Below are positions 14,167-35,956 of a stretch of DNA of 36,143 nt, piece after piece; the first letter of the stretch is position 1; the number at the start of each line of letters is the position of its first letter. Source of the stretch: an uncultured Persicobacter sp. GTDB lineage: Bacteria > Bacteroidota > Bacteroidia > Cytophagales > Cyclobacteriaceae. The notes under the pieces were generated by a model. That model was not told the DNA's origin. It ran no database searches and worked only from the letters and a program-made list of their open reading frames with translations. The position numbers and the translations under genes were made by a program. The stretch is taken from positions 1-36,143 of the forward strand of contig CANMKE010000041.1 in the NCBI GenBank assembly GCA_947498325.1, given 5' to 3'.

Positions 14167-16074
14167 ATGTCCAATATAAAAATCACCCCAACCTCCCCCC
14201 TTGCACAAAGCAAGGACCTCCTGTCTGATAACATCGCCAAGCTACAACAGCTCTTCCCTGAAGCTTTTACCGAAGGAAAGATTGACTTTGAAGCTTTGCA
14301 GAACCTTTTGGGTGACCATGTAGAAGACAAAGAAGAGCGCTACAACTTCACTTGGGCAGGCAAACAACAAGCCATGCGGGAAGCCCAGAAGATGAGCCGT
14401 GGCACCCTACGCCCTGCCAAGTCGGATAGCGTGGATTGGGACACCACCCAAAACCTCTACATCGAAGGAGATAATTTGGAAGTGCTCAAGCTCCTGCAAA
14501 AGAGCTACCACTCCAAGGTAAAGATGATCTATATTGACCCGCCATACAATACGGGGAAGGATTTTGTGTATAAGGACAACTACAAGGACAACCTGCAAAA
14601 CTACAAGGAAATCACAGGACAGGTAGGCGAAGATGGGGCACGCCTATCCACCAACAGTGATACCGCAGGACGTTACCATTCCAACTGGCTGAACATGATG
14701 TACCCTCGCCTGAAGTTGGCAAGGAACCTGTTGAAAGAAGATGGGGTGATCTTTATTTCAATTGATGACAATGAGGTAACCAACCTTAGAAGAGTGTGTG
14801 ATGAGATCTTTGGGGAGGATAATTTTGTGGCGAATGTTATATGGGAAAGAGCCTTTTCTCCTAAGAATGATGCTAAATACATATCAGAGAATCATGATCA
14901 TGTTGTCATTTATTCCAAGAGTAAGGAAAATTTCGTATGTGGTAGATTAGAACGATCTGCGGAGTCATTATCGAGATATAAGAATCCAGACAATGACCTA
15001 AGGGGAAAATGGACAAGTGGTGATTTATCAGTTAAAACATACAATGAGTCTTATGATTATCAAATCAAGACTCCCTCTGGGAAATTTGTAAACCCACCGC
15101 ACGGATCATGCTGGAGAGTTTCAAAGGAACGATTTGCTGAATTAGTAAGTGAAGATAGGATCTGGTTTGGTGCTAATGGTGATAATGTCCCTCGTCTTAA
15201 AAGATTTTTAAGTGATGTTCAAGATGGCGTAGTTCCAATTAGCATTTGGTCTAACAAAGAAGTAGGCCATAACCAAGAAGGCCGTCAAGAATTAAAAGCT
15301 ACATTTGATGGGCAAGGTTTTTTTGATGGGCCAAAGCCTGTTAGGTTATTAAGAAGAGTTTTTAAAGTAGCTAATATTTCTAAATCCGACCTCATCCTCG
15401 ACTTCTTCTCTGGCTCCGCCACCACCGCCCACGCCACGATGCAACTCAATGCCGAAGATGGCGGAAAACGCAAATTCATCATGGTGCAGTTGCCTGAACC
15501 TACGCCCGAAAAGAGCGAAGCACGCAAGGCGGGCTATGAAACGATCTGTGAGATTGGCAAGGAGCGTATCCGCAGAGCAGGGCAAAAGATCAAGGAGGAA
15601 AACCCAATCGCTACGGCGAAGCTGGACACAGGCTTCAAGGTACTGAAGTTGGACAGCTCCAATATCAAAAGCTGGGATCCGAATTATGAAGAATTGGGCA
15701 ACAGCCTTTTTGATGCGGTGGATAACATCAAAGAAGACCGCACCAATGCCGATCTGGCCTATGAAGTATTGCTAAAATACGGCTTGGACTTGACCCTACC
15801 GATCCATGAGGTGGACCTGAACGGCCACAAACTGTTTGATGTCGGTATGGGGGCTTTGCTGTTGTGCATGGAGAAAAATATCGATTCCAACCTGATCAAC
15901 AGCATCGTCAAATATGCCGAAGACAATAGTCTGATCGAGGACGAACAAGCCGAAAAGATCAAGCGCAACTGTCGCGTGATTTTCCGTGATACAGGCTTTA
16001 TTGATGATACGGTCAAGGCGAATGCACTCAAGGATTTTGAGCGTATTGGGATTACTGAGGTGCGTTCAATTTAA
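14167..16074 (+). CDS. Type III restriction-modification Mod subunit (adenine/cytosine-N4 methyltransferase)
   Basis: 635 residues. Catalytic motif DPPYNTG at 124-130 precedes the AdoMet-binding motif DFFSGSATTAHA (from 412), the beta-class order of Type III Mod proteins. Between them lies a target-recognition region (about residues 200-408), whose DNA is AT-richer than the flanks, with borders near 14770 and 15390. N-terminal and C-terminal helical parts are G+C-richer. The DPPY form suggests N6-adenine methylation, as in EcoP1I-like enzymes. It is followed 14 bp later by Res. It would methylate one strand of an asymmetric site and recruit Res to unmodified sites. Length is usual for the family. 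Confidence 0.9.
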   Translation: MSNIKITPTSPLAQSKDLLSDNIAKLQQLFPEAFTEGKIDFEALQNLLGDHVEDKEERYNFTWAGKQQAMREAQKMSRGTLRPAKSDSVDWDTTQNLYIEGDNLEVLKLLQKSYHSKVKMIYIDPPYNTGKDFVYKDNYKDNLQNYKEITGQVGEDGARLSTNSDTAGRYHSNWLNMMYPRLKLARNLLKEDGVIFISIDDNEVTNLRRVCDEIFGEDNFVANVIWERAFSPKNDAKYISENHDHVVIYSKSKENFVCGRLERSAESLSRYKNPDNDLRGKWTSGDLSVKTYNESYDYQIKTPSGKFVNPPHGSCWRVSKERFAELVSEDRIWFGANGDNVPRLKRFLSDVQDGVVPISIWSNKEVGHNQEGRQELKATFDGQGFFDGPKPVRLLRRVFKVANISKSDLILDFFSGSATTAHATMQLNAEDGGKRKFIMVQLPEPTPEKSEARKAGYETICEIGKERIRRAGQKIKEENPIATAKLDTGFKVLKLDSSNIKSWDPNYEELGNSLFDAVDNIKEDRTNADLAYEVLLKYGLDLTLPIHEVDLNGHKLFDVGMGALLLCMEKNIDSNLINSIVKYAEDNSLIEDEQAEKIKRNCRVIFRDTGFIDDTVKANALKDFERIGITEVRSI

Positions 16075-16088
16075 TCGGGAGGATTCAG

Positions 16089-19037
16089 ATGAAAATAAAA
16101 TTCGAAAACAACCTCGACTATCAGAACGAGGCCATTGACAGCTTGTGCAATTTGTTCGACGGACAAAAACAATGCACCACCACCTTTACTGTGCCTACGG
16201 CCAAAAATCAGGACCTCTTTTCGGTCAATGAAGGGGTCGCCAACCGTCTGGAACTGGATCAGGACGAACTGTTGGAAAACCTGCGTTCGGTACAGCTCAA
16301 CAACGGGCTGAAGCAAAGCCAATCGTTGGCGAGCAAGGACTTTACCGTGGAGATGGAAACAGGTACGGGGAAAACATACGTCTATCTGAAATCCATTTTT
16401 GAGCTCAACCAAAAGTACGGGTTCAGCAAGTTCATCATTGTGGTGCCGTCTATTGCCATCAAGGAGGGAACGATCAAGTCGTTGGAGATCACCAAAGAGC
16501 ATTTCAAGGAGCAGTTTGACAATGTCCGCTATGATTTCTTTCACTACGATTCACAGAAACTGGAACAGGTGCGCTCTTTCGCCACCAACGACTATATCCA
16601 GATCATGGTGATCAATATCGGTGCTTTCAACAAATCTTTCAAGGACCCTTCCAAAGAAGACAAGGCCAATATCATTCATCGCCGTTCGGAGAAACTGTCG
16701 GGCAGAAAGCCAATCGAACTGATTGCGCAAACCAGCCCTATTTTGATCATCGACGAACCGCAGACCGTCGATACCACCGAAAAATCCGCCGAGGCCATTG
16801 CCTCTTTGAACCCTTTGTGTTCGTTCCGTTTTTCGGCCACGCACCGCGAGAAACACCACCCGATCTTTAAGTTGGATGCCATCGACGCCTACAACAAAAA
16901 CTTGGTCAAGGAGATTTCCGTGGCCTCTTTTGTGTCCGAAGATGATGCCAACCGCCCCTATATCCGATTGCTGAAGGTCGATAATAAAAAGTCGCCGATC
17001 ACGGCACAGGTGGAGATCGATGCCAACGTCAAGGGCGTAACCAAGCGCAAGAAAATCAGCGTCAAGCAGAATGTCGATTTAGCCGAAAAAGCCAAGCGTT
17101 CGATCTATTCGGGCTATATCATCAAGGATATTTATTGCGGAGAAGACCAGCAATACATCGACTTTACAGGCCGTGAGGACGTCGTGCATGTCGGTCAGGC
17201 GATCAATACCGTCGATGAGGATTTGATCAAACGCCAGCAGATCCAAAAGACCATTGAAGAGCATCTGGACAAGGAACTTTTACTGAACCCCAAAGCCATT
17301 AAAGTGCTGTCGCTTTTCTTTATCGACAAAGTAAGCAACTACCGTGGCTATGACGCCGAAGGCCATCCCGTGAAAGGAAAGTATGCCCTTTGGTTTGAGG
17401 AAATCTATCAGCAGGTGGCCAGTCGGGACAAATACCGCACCCTTTTCGGGGAGGTCAAAGACATTGATGTCATCGCTTCCGAGGCGCACAATGGTTATTT
17501 TGCCCAAGACAAAAAGGGAGGATTCAAAGACACCAAGGGAACCACCTCTGCGGATGAAGATGTCTATCAGCTGATCATGAAAGACAAGGAAAAGCTATTG
17601 AGCTTCGACTCCAAACTGCGCTTTATCTTCTCCCACTCCGCCCTGCGCGAGGGTTGGGATAACCCCAATGTGTTCCAGATCTGTACGCTGAACGAGACCA
17701 CTTCAGAGATCAAAAAACGTCAAGAAATCGGACGTGGATTGCGCCTGGCGGTGAACCAGTTCGGTGAGCGAGTGAAAGACCGTTCGGTCAATCAACTGAC
17801 CGTCATGGCAAATGTGTCCTACAAGGAATTTTCTGAAAAGCTCCAAAAAGAATTGGAAGAAGATTTGGGGATCAAGTTTGGCGTTATTGAAATCCATAGC
17901 TTTGCTGGCATCAAAATGCCCGACCCGAACAACACCCGTGAGTACAAACCGATCGGTGAGGAACAATCCAATGTAATTCGTGAGGCCTTCATGGCCGAAG
18001 GTTATATTGACAAAAAAGGAAAGGTTACCGACACCCTGCGCATCGCTTTGCGCGACAATAAACTGGTCGTTCCAGCGGAATTCGCCCCAATCAAACCGCA
18101 GATCGAGCAGGTAACCAAAAAGATCACAGGCTCTTTGAACATCAAAAATGTCAAAGACAAAAAGACCGTGCAGGTGCGTAAGGAAGTGCTTTTGAGCGAA
18201 GAGTTCAAAGCCCTTTGGGACAAGATCAAGTACAAGACCAAGTATCGGTTGTCGTTTAATACGGCCACACTGATCGACCATTGCGCCAAAGCCTTGAAGG
18301 AAAACATGTATGTAGGCAATGCCAAGGTCGATGTGATTACCAACAAAATGGGGATCAATAAATCAGGGGTAGAAAGTGTTTCGGAAAAGACCCGAACTAT
18401 GGAAGTACAGACCAATACCGCCCTACCTGATATTCTGACTTATATCCAGAATGAAACCCAGCTGACCCGCCGAACCCTGGCAAAGATCCTGACACAGTCA
18501 GATACTTTAGAACACTTTAAGCGCAATCCGCAGAAGTACATCGACGAGGCTATTCGCATGATCAAAGATCAGATGGCACACTTGCTGATAGATGGCGTTG
18601 AATACGAAAAATTAGGTGAAACAGAATTCTACGGACAACGACTATTCGAAGACCACGAACTGATCGGCTATCTGGACAGTAACTTGACCGCAAGTAGCAA
18701 ATCGCCTTACGATCATGTCCTTTATGACTCGGGCACCGAAAGGGATTTTGTTACACAAATGGAGAAACAAGAAAACGTGAAGCTATATGCCAAGCTACCC
18801 TCTTGGTTCAAGATCGATACGCCAGTGGGTACCTACAATCCCGATTGGGCGATTGTCTGGGAAAAAGATGGCGACCAAAAGCTATTCTTTGTGGTCGAAA
18901 CCAAAGGTGGAATCAGCGAATTGGGCTTGCGCCCCACTGAAAAAGCCAAGATTGATTGTGGTAAGAAGCATTTTAAAGCATTGGGCACGGGTGCCGAATT
19001 GCAGGTGGTGTCGAGTTTGTCGGAGTTGAGGAAGTAA
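16089..19037 (+). CDS. Type III restriction enzyme Res subunit
   Basis: 982 residues. SF2 motor: METGTGKT (89-96), DEPQ box (222-225, the DExx variant usual in Type III Res), FSATHR, then REGWDNPNVFQ and RQEIGRGLRLAV in the second RecA domain. The C-terminal endonuclease domain has the PD...ExK pair: NPDWAIVW (D about 919) and VVETKG (E937, K939). All residues for ATP-driven long-range cleavage are present. A good GGGAGG ribosome-binding sequence 9 bp before the ATG confirms the start. The gene directly follows Mod and is probably co-transcribed with it. Confidence 0.92.
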   Translation: MKIKFENNLDYQNEAIDSLCNLFDGQKQCTTTFTVPTAKNQDLFSVNEGVANRLELDQDELLENLRSVQLNNGLKQSQSLASKDFTVEMETGTGKTYVYLKSIFELNQKYGFSKFIIVVPSIAIKEGTIKSLEITKEHFKEQFDNVRYDFFHYDSQKLEQVRSFATNDYIQIMVINIGAFNKSFKDPSKEDKANIIHRRSEKLSGRKPIELIAQTSPILIIDEPQTVDTTEKSAEAIASLNPLCSFRFSATHREKHHPIFKLDAIDAYNKNLVKEISVASFVSEDDANRPYIRLLKVDNKKSPITAQVEIDANVKGVTKRKKISVKQNVDLAEKAKRSIYSGYIIKDIYCGEDQQYIDFTGREDVVHVGQAINTVDEDLIKRQQIQKTIEEHLDKELLLNPKAIKVLSLFFIDKVSNYRGYDAEGHPVKGKYALWFEEIYQQVASRDKYRTLFGEVKDIDVIASEAHNGYFAQDKKGGFKDTKGTTSADEDVYQLIMKDKEKLLSFDSKLRFIFSHSALREGWDNPNVFQICTLNETTSEIKKRQEIGRGLRLAVNQFGERVKDRSVNQLTVMANVSYKEFSEKLQKELEEDLGIKFGVIEIHSFAGIKMPDPNNTREYKPIGEEQSNVIREAFMAEGYIDKKGKVTDTLRIALRDNKLVVPAEFAPIKPQIEQVTKKITGSLNIKNVKDKKTVQVRKEVLLSEEFKALWDKIKYKTKYRLSFNTATLIDHCAKALKENMYVGNAKVDVITNKMGINKSGVESVSEKTRTMEVQTNTALPDILTYIQNETQLTRRTLAKILTQSDTLEHFKRNPQKYIDEAIRMIKDQMAHLLIDGVEYEKLGETEFYGQRLFEDHELIGYLDSNLTASSKSPYDHVLYDSGTERDFVTQMEKQENVKLYAKLPSWFKIDTPVGTYNPDWAIVWEKDGDQKLFFVVETKGGISELGLRPTEKAKIDCGKKHFKALGTGAELQVVSSLSELRK

Positions 19038-23540: not shown

Positions 23541-23600
23541 CTACATTAGCCAATAAAATGGATTAGATCGGTCGCTCATTGGAACAATCCTCCTCCCTAA

Positions 23601-23677
23601 AAAGCACCCCTAAAGCGCTATCCAAGCAAGCCCAAAGCACCCTCAAAGTACCACAAAAGCACTATAAAAGCGCCCTA
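23601..23677. repeat. Tandem array of seven 11-bp units
   Basis: AAAGC-type pentamers (AAAGC, CAAGC or AAAGT) start at exactly 23601, 23612, 23623, 23634, 23645, 23656 and 23667. Consensus AAAGCACYCTA. Less regular units continue at 23709, 23720 and about 23730. The period is close to one DNA turn, so the A-tracts are helically phased. It lies upstream of the DUF4248 gene. Confidence 0.75.
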
Positions 23678-23815
23678 TTAGCTTGGAATAGTTATAAAAA
23701 GCAGTGTCAAAGCTCTTGCAAAGTACAAAAAAGCCGGCTCAGAGGGTGCTTATTGCCCGCTATTGCACGTATAATAAGCAGACCGCCTCCTTGTTTCACA
23801 CAAACCCTACGCTTT

Positions 23816-24043
23816 ATGAGCCCAAAGCGCAACACCATGTACAAGCAGGAAGTCGCCAAGATCATTTTCACCCACGCCTCCTCCGAAGCCTCGCCCATGC
23901 AAACCCTTCGACGGGAAATTAGAAGTTGTCCGGAGCTGCAACAAAAATTAAAAAGCCTGACCAATAAGGACAAGCTTCATTATTATAATGCGCAACAGGT
24001 GCAGTTGTTGTTTGAGCATTTTGGGGTGGGGATTGATGGTTAA
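23816..24043 (+). CDS. DUF4248-like small protein
   Basis: 75 residues from the ATG at 23816 (alternative ATG at 23837, MYKQEVAK). The pattern K-E-(L/V)A-x-(I/L)(Y/I)F...A...LRREI..CPELQ..L......HYYNAQQVQLLFEHFG fits DUF4248, a Bacteroidota-only small domain. Its function is unknown, perhaps DNA-associated. The frame stays open upstream through the 11-bp array, but that stretch encodes low-complexity residues and is unlikely to be protein. A 158-bp near-identical copy of its 3' part is found at 24809-24966. Confidence 0.6.
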   Translation: MSPKRNTMYKQEVAKIIFTHASSEASPMQTLRREIRSCPELQQKLKSLTNKDKLHYYNAQQVQLLFEHFGVGIDG

Positions 24044-26902: not shown

Positions 26903-27391
26903 ATGAATGAAGATTTAGCCAATATTGCCAAAGTAGCCGCTGTCGGAACCGTTGTTGCGGGTGGGCTATATTTCTACAACAAGGGCAAGAAGATCCTACC
27001 GGTGGCTGATCTGAAATTCACTTATCACCTTCCTCGTCTGCATTCGGTGGACTTGCAAAAGGTGGTCATTGCCGTGGACATTCAAGCCTACAATCCCCGC
27101 ACGACAGCGGTGGCTTTGGGGCTTCGCCAAATCGTGGCCAACTACAATGGTGCTCCATTGGCGTTTTCGGTGCCGCAAGGCAAGGTTCATCAGATTGCAC
27201 CGACCTCTACGCAGGTGCTTCCAATCAAATTTGAAATTCCGCTTTCTAACCTCTTGGGGAAAGGATTGAAGATTTCACAAGTATCGACGATCCTTTCATC
27301 CCTTGCCTTTGACTTGCACCTGACCGTGAACGGTGAGCAGGTCAATCATCACTTAGCTTCAAATTTACCCACAGCTAAAGCAATGGGCTAA
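26903..27391 (+). CDS. LEA-type-2-like membrane-anchored protein, C-terminus formed by a repeat
   Basis: 162 residues. An N-terminal hydrophobic stretch (8-26) is followed by a beta-sandwich typical of LEA-2/WHy domains (VDLQKVVIAVDIQAYNPRTTAVALGLRQIVANYNG...). Such proteins occur near phage-like and plasmid gene sets in Bacteroidota; their role is unknown. The last seven residues (PTAKAMG) and the stop codon are encoded by copy C of the palindromic repeat, so the original C-terminus was replaced or slightly shortened by repeat insertion. It is the first gene of the rightward cluster. Confidence 0.65.
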   Translation: MNEDLANIAKVAAVGTVVAGGLYFYNKGKKILPVADLKFTYHLPRLHSVDLQKVVIAVDIQAYNPRTTAVALGLRQIVANYNGAPLAFSVPQGKVHQIAPTSTQVLPIKFEIPLSNLLGKGLKISQVSTILSSLAFDLHLTVNGEQVNHHLASNLPTAKAMG

Positions 27392-33060: not shown

Positions 33061-33178
33061 GGGTAAACCATGGTTTGGTTCCTCAGCGGGTCGAAGGAAC
33101 AACCGTGGTGGACAAAGGCGTCCACATTTCGGGACAAAACCATGAAGGAATGATGAAAGATATACTGCTTGAGTGGTT

Positions 33179-34219
33179 ATGGAAAATGGTAAATATGCTG
33201 ATTCTTCAGTCGGTAGGTGTTGGTTCGATGTTGGTATTTTTGAGGATCCTGTGGATCAAATGGAAAAGAAAGCGGGGATGATTTTAACGCAAGGCGATGA
33301 GGCGAAGAGCATTACGGCGATTTTCATGGGCGTGAGCATCAACAAGAAATTGGATAATCCTTATGCACCGTCGGCGGTGAAATTTTCTTTTGCCCTGAGT
33401 GATGGACGCCGAATGGTGAGCCTTCCGGCTTCGGGTGAAACGGCGCAACAGGTTGAAAGAGTGTTGAGCCGTAGCTTCCAATTGAACGAAGAAGCGCAGG
33501 CGAATTTCATTGAAAAATGGGATCAGGCGATTTCCAATAGCAGTGCCGACCGTGAAACCCGATACATCATTACGGGCAATATTTTGCAGGCGACGCCCAT
33601 CTACAAGGGCAAATTAATCAGCTATACGACCGCCGATGATAAGGTCAAAAAGGGGATTTTGGTCCCTCCTACCTGGTCATTCAAAGAGAATGCTCGCCAT
33701 GTGGTGGTGCCCGCTTCGCAATTGGGAAAGGTACTGAGAAGTCTGAGCGTCGGGCAGTCGTTCAGCATGATTAAGAAGGTTTCTTTTATGCGGCAGCGGG
33801 GGCGATTCAACATCATCATCAAGCAGCATAAGACCTATCAGATGATTTATACCGACTGGGATTTGATAAATCTGATGGAACAATCGGACGGATTTCAGAA
33901 GGTTTCTGACAAGATGAAGGCGTCTTTTGTGGATGAAAATTTGGACAAGGTGCTCGATATTTTGAGTGATAAATATTCGATCAATGCGCAGTTGGATCGG
34001 GAGAAGTATGACTTCGAACCACCGGAAGAGGTACCGAAAGATGACAATATTACGGCAGAAGCATTGAAGCTGTTTGACCAGGATAAGAGGGGCTTTGATC
34101 AGCGTTTGAGTGCGCAGGAGAAGCGAAAAAAGGCGAATGACAAGAAGGCTAAAGGTAATCTTAAACTGGCTCGAATGCGGGCAAAAGCGATTTTGATTTT
34201 GCAGGCGCAGGTTTTGTAA
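33179..34219 (+). CDS. Protein resembling the C-terminal module of DarB/strawberry-notch-like polyvalent proteins
   Basis: 346 residues from the ATG at 33179 (MENGKYADSSVG); an in-frame GTG lies 6 bp upstream. Residues about 110-165 read RYIITGNILQA...GKLISYTTADD..KKGILVP. I recall this pattern from the end of very large plasmid and phage polyvalent proteins with strawberry-notch/DarB helicase parts. The rest is basic; the C-terminal 60 residues are a Lys/Arg-rich helix (RLSAQEKRKKANDKKAKGN). No helicase motif is present here, so if related it is a stand-alone module. The function is unknown; protection or packaging of transferred DNA is a guess. Confidence 0.5.
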   Translation: MENGKYADSSVGRCWFDVGIFEDPVDQMEKKAGMILTQGDEAKSITAIFMGVSINKKLDNPYAPSAVKFSFALSDGRRMVSLPASGETAQQVERVLSRSFQLNEEAQANFIEKWDQAISNSSADRETRYIITGNILQATPIYKGKLISYTTADDKVKKGILVPPTWSFKENARHVVVPASQLGKVLRSLSVGQSFSMIKKVSFMRQRGRFNIIIKQHKTYQMIYTDWDLINLMEQSDGFQKVSDKMKASFVDENLDKVLDILSDKYSINAQLDREKYDFEPPEEVPKDDNITAEALKLFDQDKRGFDQRLSAQEKRKKANDKKAKGNLKLARMRAKAILILQAQVL

Positions 34220-34403: not shown

Positions 34404-35345
34404 ATGATCCTAAACATCAACAACTACAAAGACCAAGTCAAGAAAATTGATTTTTCCAAACTCCCCAAAGCGTTGCAGGAGGCGCACGAGCAGTTTGATG
34501 ATTTCGCCGAATTTTACAAGGAGGACGATCAGATCAAACAAATGTTGGACAATCATTTCAAGCTGGTGATTAAGCACACTTCGTCCAAAACGGGCGAAAA
34601 AAAGACGAGCACCACTCGAACCACGGCGAAGCGAACAACTAAGCGAACGACCAAGAAAGCACCGGCAAAAAAGGCAAGTCCACGGGCGAAGACAACAGCG
34701 GCGAAAACAGCAACCAAAAAGCCCTCAACAACAAAAACAGCCCGCAAAACGACAGCGAAGAAAACCACTACCCGCAAGGCTCGGACCCCAAAGGCAGCGG
34801 TGCGCAAACCGAATGAAGTTTCGGCGATGCCGATGGAAGTGCGCCTGATGCGTCGTTACAAAAATTTGCACAATAAAAAGGTAACGATCAAGCAGATCAT
34901 CTTGCTATACAAAGCTATCCAACGGGCGGCGATTGAAAAGACGATCCGCAAAAACAGTGCGAATGCGGACATGATTTTGAAGATTGCCAAGGAGCTCAAC
35001 AATACTTACCAAGAAGCCAAAAGCGATACGTTCACCTATGAAATTCCGAAGAAATTGTACACGGATGTTGAGGGCACGGTGGCGATGTATGGCATCAGTG
35101 CGGCGGTGAACTTGGTCAAACGCTTCATTGGTTTGTATCACACGATCACTGAAGAGAAGGCAAAGCGTTTGCTCAAATCCATTGAAAACAGTCTGAAAAA
35201 TCAGAAGGTCAAAAAGGGCGATTACGGCTATGCGCAGGTGATGAAAGTGCAGAAAATTTTAAAAGACTATTTGAAACAAGATCAATTGATATTGAAGGAA
35301 ACAGAGCTGGCAGGCTTGCAAAAAGTCTGCGGGCGGGGAAAGTAA
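34404..35345 (+). CDS. Lys-rich (histone-H1-like) linker protein, 0-frame product
   Basis: 313 residues. N-terminal domain MILNINNYKDQVKKIDFSKL to about 62; then about 75 residues of Lys/Thr/Ala/Arg repeats (KRTTKRTTKKAPAKKAS type, histone-H1-like, DNA-binding character); then a helical domain with two similar units (MRRYKNLHNKKVTIKQIILLYKAI...EKTIRKNS and LVKRFIGLYHTITEEKAKRLLKSIENSLK). I recall homologues in other Bacteroidota plasmids and islands in which this is fused to the P-loop ATPase encoded next. Here the reading ends at TAA (35343-35345), directly after a slippery heptamer. Confidence 0.7.
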   Translation: MILNINNYKDQVKKIDFSKLPKALQEAHEQFDDFAEFYKEDDQIKQMLDNHFKLVIKHTSSKTGEKKTSTTRTTAKRTTKRTTKKAPAKKASPRAKTTAAKTATKKPSTTKTARKTTAKKTTTRKARTPKAAVRKPNEVSAMPMEVRLMRRYKNLHNKKVTIKQIILLYKAIQRAAIEKTIRKNSANADMILKIAKELNNTYQEAKSDTFTYEIPKKLYTDVEGTVAMYGISAAVNLVKRFIGLYHTITEEKAKRLLKSIENSLKNQKVKKGDYGYAQVMKVQKILKDYLKQDQLILKETELAGLQKVCGRGK

Positions 35346-35386
35346 TCGCCACTGCCGACCGTTCAGATGCGGTTTCCGGCAGTGGC
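35336..35386 (+). promoter_or_regulatory. Candidate programmed -1 ribosomal frameshift signal
   Basis: Slippery heptamer G-GGA-AAG at 35336-35342 is in the correct 0-frame phase (X XXY YYZ). The 0-frame stop TAA follows at once (35343-35345), then a 5-nt spacer counted from the heptamer (35343-35347). A stem GCCACTGCCG (35348-35357) / CGGCAGTGGC (35377-35386) of 10 perfect pairs follows, with inner ACCG/CGGT pairing. A -1 slip moves ribosomes into exactly the frame of the downstream ATPase. The layout is that of the E. coli dnaX signal. Confidence 0.65.
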
Positions 35387-35431
35387 AATCTCGGTGCTTT
35401 TGATGTCGTGAGTGCGGAGCAACTGAGCTCG

Positions 35432-35956
35432 ATGAAATTCGATACGCTCAAGTTGCCCGCACCCTTTTCCGGCTTGTTGGGTGAACCCTTTCAGCCGTTC
35501 TACATGATGATCTACGGACGACGTTTTCAGGGAAAATCAACCGTGGCCCTATGCCTGGCCAACGCTTTGGCGAAGGTGGGGAAAAAGGTACTTTTTGTGA
35601 GTAACGAAGAAGGGCTTCAGGGCAGTTTGCAGGAGAAAATCAAACGCCTGAAGGTGGATCAGCATATTGATTTTGTACAGGATTTTCATGAAGGACAACT
35701 CAAGGAATATGATGTGGTTTTTATGGATTCGGTACAGACGATCGGCTTGAAGGTGGAGCAGTTTCAGGCATTCAAACAGCAGTACCAGAACTGTTCGATC
35801 GTGATGATCTTCAAACAAAATCGGGACGGCAGTTCAAAGGGCGGATCGGACTGGGAGCATGATGTGGATGCGATCATGAAAGTAGAGGACCGCTCGGCGA
35901 CGATGGAAAAAAATCGCTTTCCCAAAGCAAAACCCAAAACCTATAAAATATTCTGA
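35432..35956 (+). CDS. P-loop ATPase (RecA/KaiC-like), -1 frame partner
   Basis: From the ATG at 35432 the product has 174 residues; the frame is open back through 35342 and encodes plausible protein there (AFDVVSAEQLSSMKFD). Walker A GRRFQGKST, Walker B YDVVFMDSVQ, and a late EHDVDAIMKVED segment place it among small RecA-like ATPases. No clear ribosome-binding site is present at 35432 or at the GTG at 35408. Its main route of expression may be frameshifting from the upstream gene, giving a fusion of 517 residues. The stop overlaps the next start (TGATG). Confidence 0.65.
   Translation: MKFDTLKLPAPFSGLLGEPFQPFYMMIYGRRFQGKSTVALCLANALAKVGKKVLFVSNEEGLQGSLQEKIKRLKVDQHIDFVQDFHEGQLKEYDVVFMDSVQTIGLKVEQFQAFKQQYQNCSIVMIFKQNRDGSSKGGSDWEHDVDAIMKVEDRSATMEKNRFPKAKPKTYKIF

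Follow-up and report, generated by a model that had tools for sequence, protein, structure and literature searches.

A probable programmed -1 ribosomal frameshift joining a RadA-like ATPase to an upstream protein in mobile DNA of Bacteroidota

Introduction

Near the end of a 36,143-nucleotide contig from an uncultured Persicobacter sp. (GenBank assembly GCA_947498325.1, CANMKE010000041.1; the whole of this stretch is called the window below), an open reading frame stops and a P-loop ATPase lies open in the -1 frame, which raises the question of whether the two are separate genes, a single gene broken by mutation, or one gene that is read in two ways. An earlier note on this DNA had proposed the last, a programmed -1 frameshift that fuses a histone-like protein to the ATPase. 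To our knowledge, few conserved -1 frameshifts are known apart from those of insertion sequences, phage tail chaperones and dnaX. A literature search, with most subscription papers and all supplements outside its range, returned no text in which this frameshift or this gene is named, and automatic annotation hides the frameshift gene, which appears as two genes on plasmid pPP10. Our analysis indicates that ribosomes very probably shift frame at a conserved signal, by which one gene yields a short and a longer protein.

Results

The junction in the window

The features of the junction, all on the forward strand, are as follows.
34404..35345, +, ORF1, 313 aa, the terminated product; related loci also have homologous ORFs 5' of the ATPase
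35336..35342, +, slippery heptamer G GGA AAG, in a phase that suits -1 slippage; both tRNAs can re-pair
35343..35345, +, 0-frame stop TAA, abutting the heptamer; a stop stands here in 24/24 junctions
35348..35357, +, 5' arm, GCCACTGCCG, of a putative stimulatory stem, 5 nt past the heptamer
35358..35373, +, inner helix ACCG/CGGT of the window stem-loop; among the 24 junctions, confined to the three Persicobacter copies
35377..35386, +, 3' arm, CGGCAGTGGC, of the putative stimulatory stem, pairing with 35348-35357
35342..35956, +, -1 frame extension, RadA/RecA-like P-loop ATPase, 204 residues plus stop; Walker A at about 35516-35539

ORF1 ends with CGG GGA AAG TAA, and the -1 frame stays open from 35336 until 35956. 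The heptamer, its phase, the TAA, the stem at 5 nt and the -1 ATPase frame that the earlier note had described are all in place, and the lengths it gave, 517 aa for the fusion and 313 for the terminated form, agree with the sum 313 + 204 = 517. The stem consists of 10 Watson-Crick pairs with the ACCG/CGGT pairs as an extra inside, and in a 65-nt fold the stem-loop has a minimum free energy of -28.7 kcal/mol (z -3.56; 1 of 200 shuffles was as good). Perfect stems of at least 10 pairs start at only 6 of the 72,166 window positions on the two strands, the junction stem included, while GGGAAAG occurs seven times over both strands and is directly followed by T[A/G][A/G] in one case. The 18-base pattern, allowing up to two mismatches, has one occurrence in the window where 0.08 would be expected, and 8 of 100 shuffles had one. 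Since both the heptamer with its stop and the long stem are rare in the window, the signal is unlikely to have arisen by chance.

Conservation among close relatives

Relatives were collected by protein similarity of the ATPase only, so that the slip signal was no part of the search, and rows that exactly repeated the matched stretch of an earlier row (for example L048, from another genome) were left out. The 27 rows above 200 bits represent 26 places, L056 being half of the L035 copy; at two of these (L002 and L052) the contig ends before the junction, which leaves 24 that reach it. The script that located junctions required a stop and a stem, and every place above 200 bits that reached the junction passed. 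Slip site, stop and stem are thus kept in 24/24 junctions, with GGGAAAG as the heptamer in 22, AAAAAAG in one (L074) and GGAAAAG, a weaker slip site, in one (L075), and the stem, beginning GCCA[C/T]T, starts 5 nt downstream of the heptamer in all 24. These loci are not 24 independent events, as some genomes contribute several of them (four in G293, three in G297), and they have 13 distinct stem sequences.

The close relatives belong to Marinilabiliales and other Bacteroidales, an Ichthyobacteriaceae MAG and Persicobacter plasmids. In an unrooted ATPase tree with several long branches, the 24 frameshift loci fall on one side of a branch with support 100/99. A genome classed in the same species as that of the window (G292) has two copies, which are 98 and 97% identical to the window over the -1 frame; their coordinates correspond to plasmids pPP10 and pPP1 of Persicobacter psychrovividus NBRC 101262.

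Constraint on the RNA

The Ala and Thr codons within the 5' arm are GCC and ACT in 24/24 loci, with identical third bases; L073 has an inserted Ile codon between them, so that its arm reads GCCATT. By comparison, in the 16 invariant four-fold columns of the ATPase the share of the most frequent third base averages about 54%, with a maximum of 79%. The third base of the Val codon is also the same in 24/24 loci, but it is forced by the stop codon, and the Gly column at the 3' arm reaches a share of 79% because the protein alignment is out of register with the stem there. Base pairing was counted on arms placed by script, because the alignment (A4) mixes indel classes. Standard pairs fill 190 of the 192 cells of stem pairs 1-8; among the 13 distinct stems, pair 7 is realized as A-U, G-C, G-U or U-G and pair 10 as U-A, A-U or G-C, with one mismatch at pair 7 and three each at pairs 9 and 10. 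Arms pair better with their own partners than with swapped ones (9.38 vs 8.72 of 10 pairs), and 20 of 20,000 permutations were as good, in a test that is inflated by the kinship of the rows.

Pattern searches served as controls. The bare pattern GGGAAAGTARNNGCCAYT occurs in 37 IMG/VR stretches, two of which have an uninterrupted Watson-Crick stem of at least 8 pairs; profile matches to ORF1 and the ATPase are confined to these two, L179 (the Carboxylicivirga record) and L189 (new). In one other IMG/VR stretch (L178), both frames are open for 60 codons, with a stem of 2. The same pattern gave 8 matches in 395 genomes of the class, 3 of them this junction and the other 5 with stems of at most 3. 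A control pattern, read backwards, gave 3 matches. This strict measure counts only uninterrupted Watson-Crick pairs and gives the true members L211 and L217 a score of 5, so that the family is not delimited by a threshold of 8 pairs alone. Asking instead for a stem of at least 5 plus 60 open codons in both frames selects exactly L179, L189, L211 and L217 out of the 44 loci tested.

Other possible stimulators were considered. In the 23 of 24 loci covered, the best anti-Shine-Dalgarno pairing in the 27 nt upstream averages -5.5, against -5.7 for random synonymous codons. A few loci carry AAAGGAGT 9 nt 5' of the heptamer. With no enrichment over random synonymous codons in this set, an upstream Shine-Dalgarno helper is not visibly under selection. 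Pairing between the loop and the downstream sequence in 20 distinct pairs scores z 6.1 over shuffles, and p 0.11 with swapped partners. Marinilabiliaceae junctions (for example L038:4001-4075, L041:4001-4075 and L084:1501-1575) have GCCC in the loop and GGGC downstream, a pairing that is absent in the Persicobacter copies and that might build an H-type pseudoknot on the conserved stem.

The two products

ORF1 is composed of a short N-terminal helical part, a disordered, basic linker rich in Lys, Ala and Thr, and a C-terminal helical domain (about aa 140-308), the last being confident in the structure model. A fold search of the PDB gave no match at E<=0.001, no Pfam family, histone families included, was above the cut-off, and the comparison of the ORF1 profile with sequences of solved structures gave one chance-level match (E 0.5). 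What corresponds to the term histone-like of the earlier note is the K/A/T-rich linker; with both the Pfam and the PDB fold searches empty, membership of ORF1 in a histone or histone H1-like family is not supported.

That the downstream part is a P-loop ATPase, as previously proposed, is borne out by a RecA core with a Walker A motif, which fold searches place near RadA. Its structure model (mean pLDDT 69) has RadA structures 8rxc and 5lkm as top matches (E 1e-8 to 1e-9, TM 0.60-0.68), and its profile matches are PHROG 6891 'ATPase' and AAA_24, the latter being the sole Pfam family above the cut-off when ORF1 and ATPase were scanned. Among sequences of solved structures, the matches of the ATPase query (P0002) at E<=0.1 were three RecA chains and a NifH-like ATP-binding protein. 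GxxxxGKS and KNRFP are invariant in the ATPase alignment; we take KNRFG to be the name of the corresponding RadA-type motif. Cellular RadA carries an N-terminal zinc finger and a C-terminal Lon-like domain, for neither of which a Pfam match was obtained in the 204-aa ATPase part, which is therefore called a RadA-like domain and not a RadA orthologue.

Past the slip site, the -1 peptide reads (G/K)KVxA(I)T in all 24 loci. Its residues K2, V3, A5, T6, V25 and S26 are invariant in the aligned rows (12 and 15), and V25 and S26 precede an ATG (MKF) that is in frame at alignment column 94 in 23/24 loci and absent in L073. Among the Persicobacter copies, the -1 frame has 31.5-33.5 synonymous changes over about 130 sites and 4.5-6.5 non-synonymous changes over about 488; the first 32 codons alone have 2.5-3.5 synonymous and 1.5-2.5 non-synonymous changes, which are small numbers. 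In the distant pair L069 and L050, changes in the first 25 codons amount to 7.5 synonymous over 18.2 sites and 25.5 non-synonymous over 56.8, and these about equal rates suggest that the linker right after the slip is loosely constrained as protein.

Gene neighborhood and the mobile element

Two neighboring genes of the window belong to the same module.
33173..34219, +, strawberry-notch helicase, C-terminal remnant of 348 aa; the full length on plasmid pPP10 is 1285 aa
35956..36141, +, small membrane protein, the next gene of the module by synteny, ending at the contig end

On pPP10, the order is a virion-type transglycosylase (PHROG 873, 1e-35), genes without assignment, a weakly methylase-like gene (PHROG 6380, 1e-4), the strawberry-notch helicase, ORF1/ATPase, the small membrane protein, a weakly holin-like protein and an amidase, the last three having been scanned in the near-identical pPP1 copy. 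Among 18 loci, the helicase part is upstream in 16, the other two ending before it; the small membrane protein comes next in 17, and a holin-like protein and an endolysin of another type are found in 16 each. One locus (L054) has no small membrane protein, holin-like protein or endolysin, and seven of the 18 have one extra gene between helicase and ORF1.

An IMG/VR record with the module also encodes an integrase and a DnaG-type primase. The holin and spanin matches are weak (E 0.0012 and 0.017), and no capsid or terminase families were found among the scanned proteins, save that the transglycosylase matches 'head' families through its enzyme domain and that there were sub-threshold scaffold-like matches. 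The endolysin, the weak holin and spanin matches, the transglycosylase, the integrase, the DnaG-type primase and the IMG/VR class suggest that the element is phage-like. At L085:711-11346 and L060:1288-7980, a conserved operon encodes about ten proteins, none of which matches a capsid family and some of which, judged by eye, probably have a membrane segment; a virion-type transglycosylase accompanies them. These genes may encode the shell of a virus-like element that has yet to be described.

The genome of the window has a second copy of the module (L058, G000:C57:1-7699), with an ATPase 96% identical, which ends at the contig end; the membrane, holin-like and amidase genes are followed there by ParB/ParA/replication-like ORFs (by eye), as on pPP10. 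Within the window, 26903-27391 and 23579-24043 resemble (by eye) pieces of the first genes of L085, which encode proteins of 822 and 78 aa, so that the window seems to hold a broken-up element. With its helicase reduced to the last 348 aa, the window copy of the module may be a remnant in which the frameshift gene is still intact. Two ORFs at 14167-19037 look (by eye) like a type III restriction-modification pair of methylase and Res subunit.

Fused, frameshifted and split forms in the wider family

Searching with the ATPase (P0002) at E<=1e-5 gave matches in 32 of 291 genomes of the order, and profile searches gave matches in 20 of 395 genomes of the phylum at 1e-15 and in 47 of 395 genomes of the class at 1e-20. 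Among 52 distant loci also passing tblastn at 1e-8, the ORF1 profile matches in the same frame as the ATPase in 19 (weakly in L013 and L014), in a separate upstream ORF in 3, and nowhere in 30. Of the 68 matches listed for the class, the 48 that were examined comprise 31 single ORFs with both parts, 16 without an ORF1 match and one frameshift copy (L126, with the coordinates of L072). The statement in the earlier note that other Bacteroidota have the protein as a single chain therefore proved right. The same note had taken an in-frame single gene without a slippery site in related genomes as evidence against the frameshift; such genes were found in distant kin only, the close kin having the slippery site. 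By eye, KVxAT was seen at the junction in none of 30 single-chain proteins, as expected if this peptide is a by-product of the signal.

Further arrangements were observed at individual distant loci. L020 (G198, position 1309, minus strand), placed elsewhere in the ATPase tree, carries another candidate frameshift signal, with A AAA AAG TAA at the homologous junction and, starting 2-3 nt on, a stem of different sequence with 10 pairs in the fold (11-12 complementary by eye). L024 (G177) has a run of ten A in the overlap of ORF1 and ATPase, where transcriptional or ribosomal slippage is possible at the same fusion point. In L022, ORF1 and ATPase are separate, non-overlapping genes.

Discussion

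A programmed frameshift and its alternatives

We conclude, with a probability of about 0.9, that a programmed -1 ribosomal frameshift joins ORF1 to the RadA-like ATPase, the slippage itself being deduced from sequence comparison. The earlier note had named alignment with homologues as a check, and there heptamer and stem are kept in 24/24 junctions, with synonymous constraint and covariation; together with the pattern controls, this argues for a conserved programmed frameshift and not a mutation. A plain frameshift mutation or sequencing error in a once-single gene might be suggested by the many distant relatives that are single ORFs and by the truncated helicase gene that adjoins the window copy. 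However, the same break, base and signal recur across isolates, MAGs and a complete plasmid, 24 loci in all, and the -1 frame of the Persicobacter copies changes mostly at synonymous sites, so that this reading has next to no probability and is rejected for the family. Read-through of the stop is excluded as well, since it would stay in the 0 frame and the ATPase is in the -1 frame.

It is very improbable that ORF1 and the ATPase are two separate genes, with translation of the latter initiated at an ATG of its own (MKF), either internally or by coupling, and the heptamer incidental. Public annotation of pPP10 (NZ_AP025302.1, 38627-40167) does give two CDS, with the ATPase from the downstream ATG; that ATG is present in 23/24 loci, the stretch before it is variable in distant pairs, and the genes do not overlap in the distant L022. 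Separate initiation nevertheless leaves unexplained the heptamer, stop and stem in 24/24 loci, the synonymous constraint and the covariation, and it fits poorly with the invariant V25 and S26 before the ATG, with L073, which is without the ATG, and with the fused form being common in relatives (31/48). Internal initiation of the ATPase at MKF is possible in addition to the frameshift. Transcriptional slippage at the G4A3 run is very improbable as a substitute for ribosomal slippage, because the GGGGAAAG run is too short and mixed for polymerase slippage and the conserved stem, at its constant spacing, has the typical look of a ribosomal stimulator; even so, the distant L024 has its ten-A run in the overlap, and long A runs serve the same end in Thermus dnaX (PMC5009743).

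Under the programmed frameshift, ribosomes translating ORF1 would arrive at G GGA AAG, where the two tRNAs would move back to pair with GGG AAA in the -1 frame. The stem-loop, 5 nt further on, would slow the ribosome and supply the pause. Heptamers of the type X_XX.A_AA.G, G_GGA_AAG by name, are described as highly shift-prone in E. coli (PMC4066793, PMC5009743). The majority of ribosomes would probably end at the adjoining TAA and release the 313-aa protein, and a fraction would go on to make the 517-aa protein with the RadA-like ATPase domain, presumably in a fixed ratio of the two forms.

The gene neighbors, namely the strawberry-notch helicase, the endolysin and the holin-like protein, suggest a use in replication, packaging or cell entry of the element. 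As the most likely role, judged from these neighbors, we propose that ORF1 would be an oligomeric DNA-binding subunit of the mobile element's DNA-processing machinery, whose multimers would bind the element's DNA while a minority of subunits bring the RadA-like motor, the shift setting the share of subunits with an ATP-driven motor. More speculatively, the frameshift may be old in a widespread, undescribed virus-like element of Bacteroidota and may determine how many RadA-like motors each DNA-binding oligomer carries within a complex for packaging or entry. As part of the same tentative picture, relatives with one chain, with A AAA AAG and a different stem, with a ten-A run or with separate genes would indicate that the ratio was repeatedly rewired. 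A family with single-chain, frameshifted and split versions offers a comparative system for the setting of a motor-to-subunit ratio.

Comparison with known systems

The slip site of the phage lambda G/GT tail chaperone is GGGAAAG, the same heptamer as here, and there, as presumed here, the longer, minority product is the shifted form. The lambda proteins are, as far as known, unrelated to ORF1 and the ATPase, and the present case differs in having a stem-loop after the slip site and an ATPase as the extension. The -1 frameshifts of IS1 and IS3 transposases likewise add a catalytic part to a DNA-binding protein in mobile DNA, but no transposase families are among the family matches of ORF1 and the ATPase. 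Polyvalent proteins of mobile elements in Bacteroidetes have an SMS/RadA domain joined to other domains, and strawberry-notch-like helicases are coupled to adenine methylases in phages and plasmids (PMC5512222). A RadA-like domain is thus fused to other parts in mobile elements there as here, and the portion of that paper available to us mentions no recoding.

The earlier note had taken E. coli dnaX as its model. The likeness extends to the slip heptamer, the stem-loop and the ATPase gene; the direction is reversed, in that the E. coli shift shortens the product (tau/gamma), whereas here the long product needs the shift, which adds the ATPase. The ATPase also differs, with a RadA/RecA-like fold here and not that of the clamp-loader AAA+ family. 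A reversed type of dnaX has been described (PMC5009743), with the gamma stop immediately behind the slip site and tau dependent on the shift. As with dnaX, different lineages appear to reach the same products by different means.
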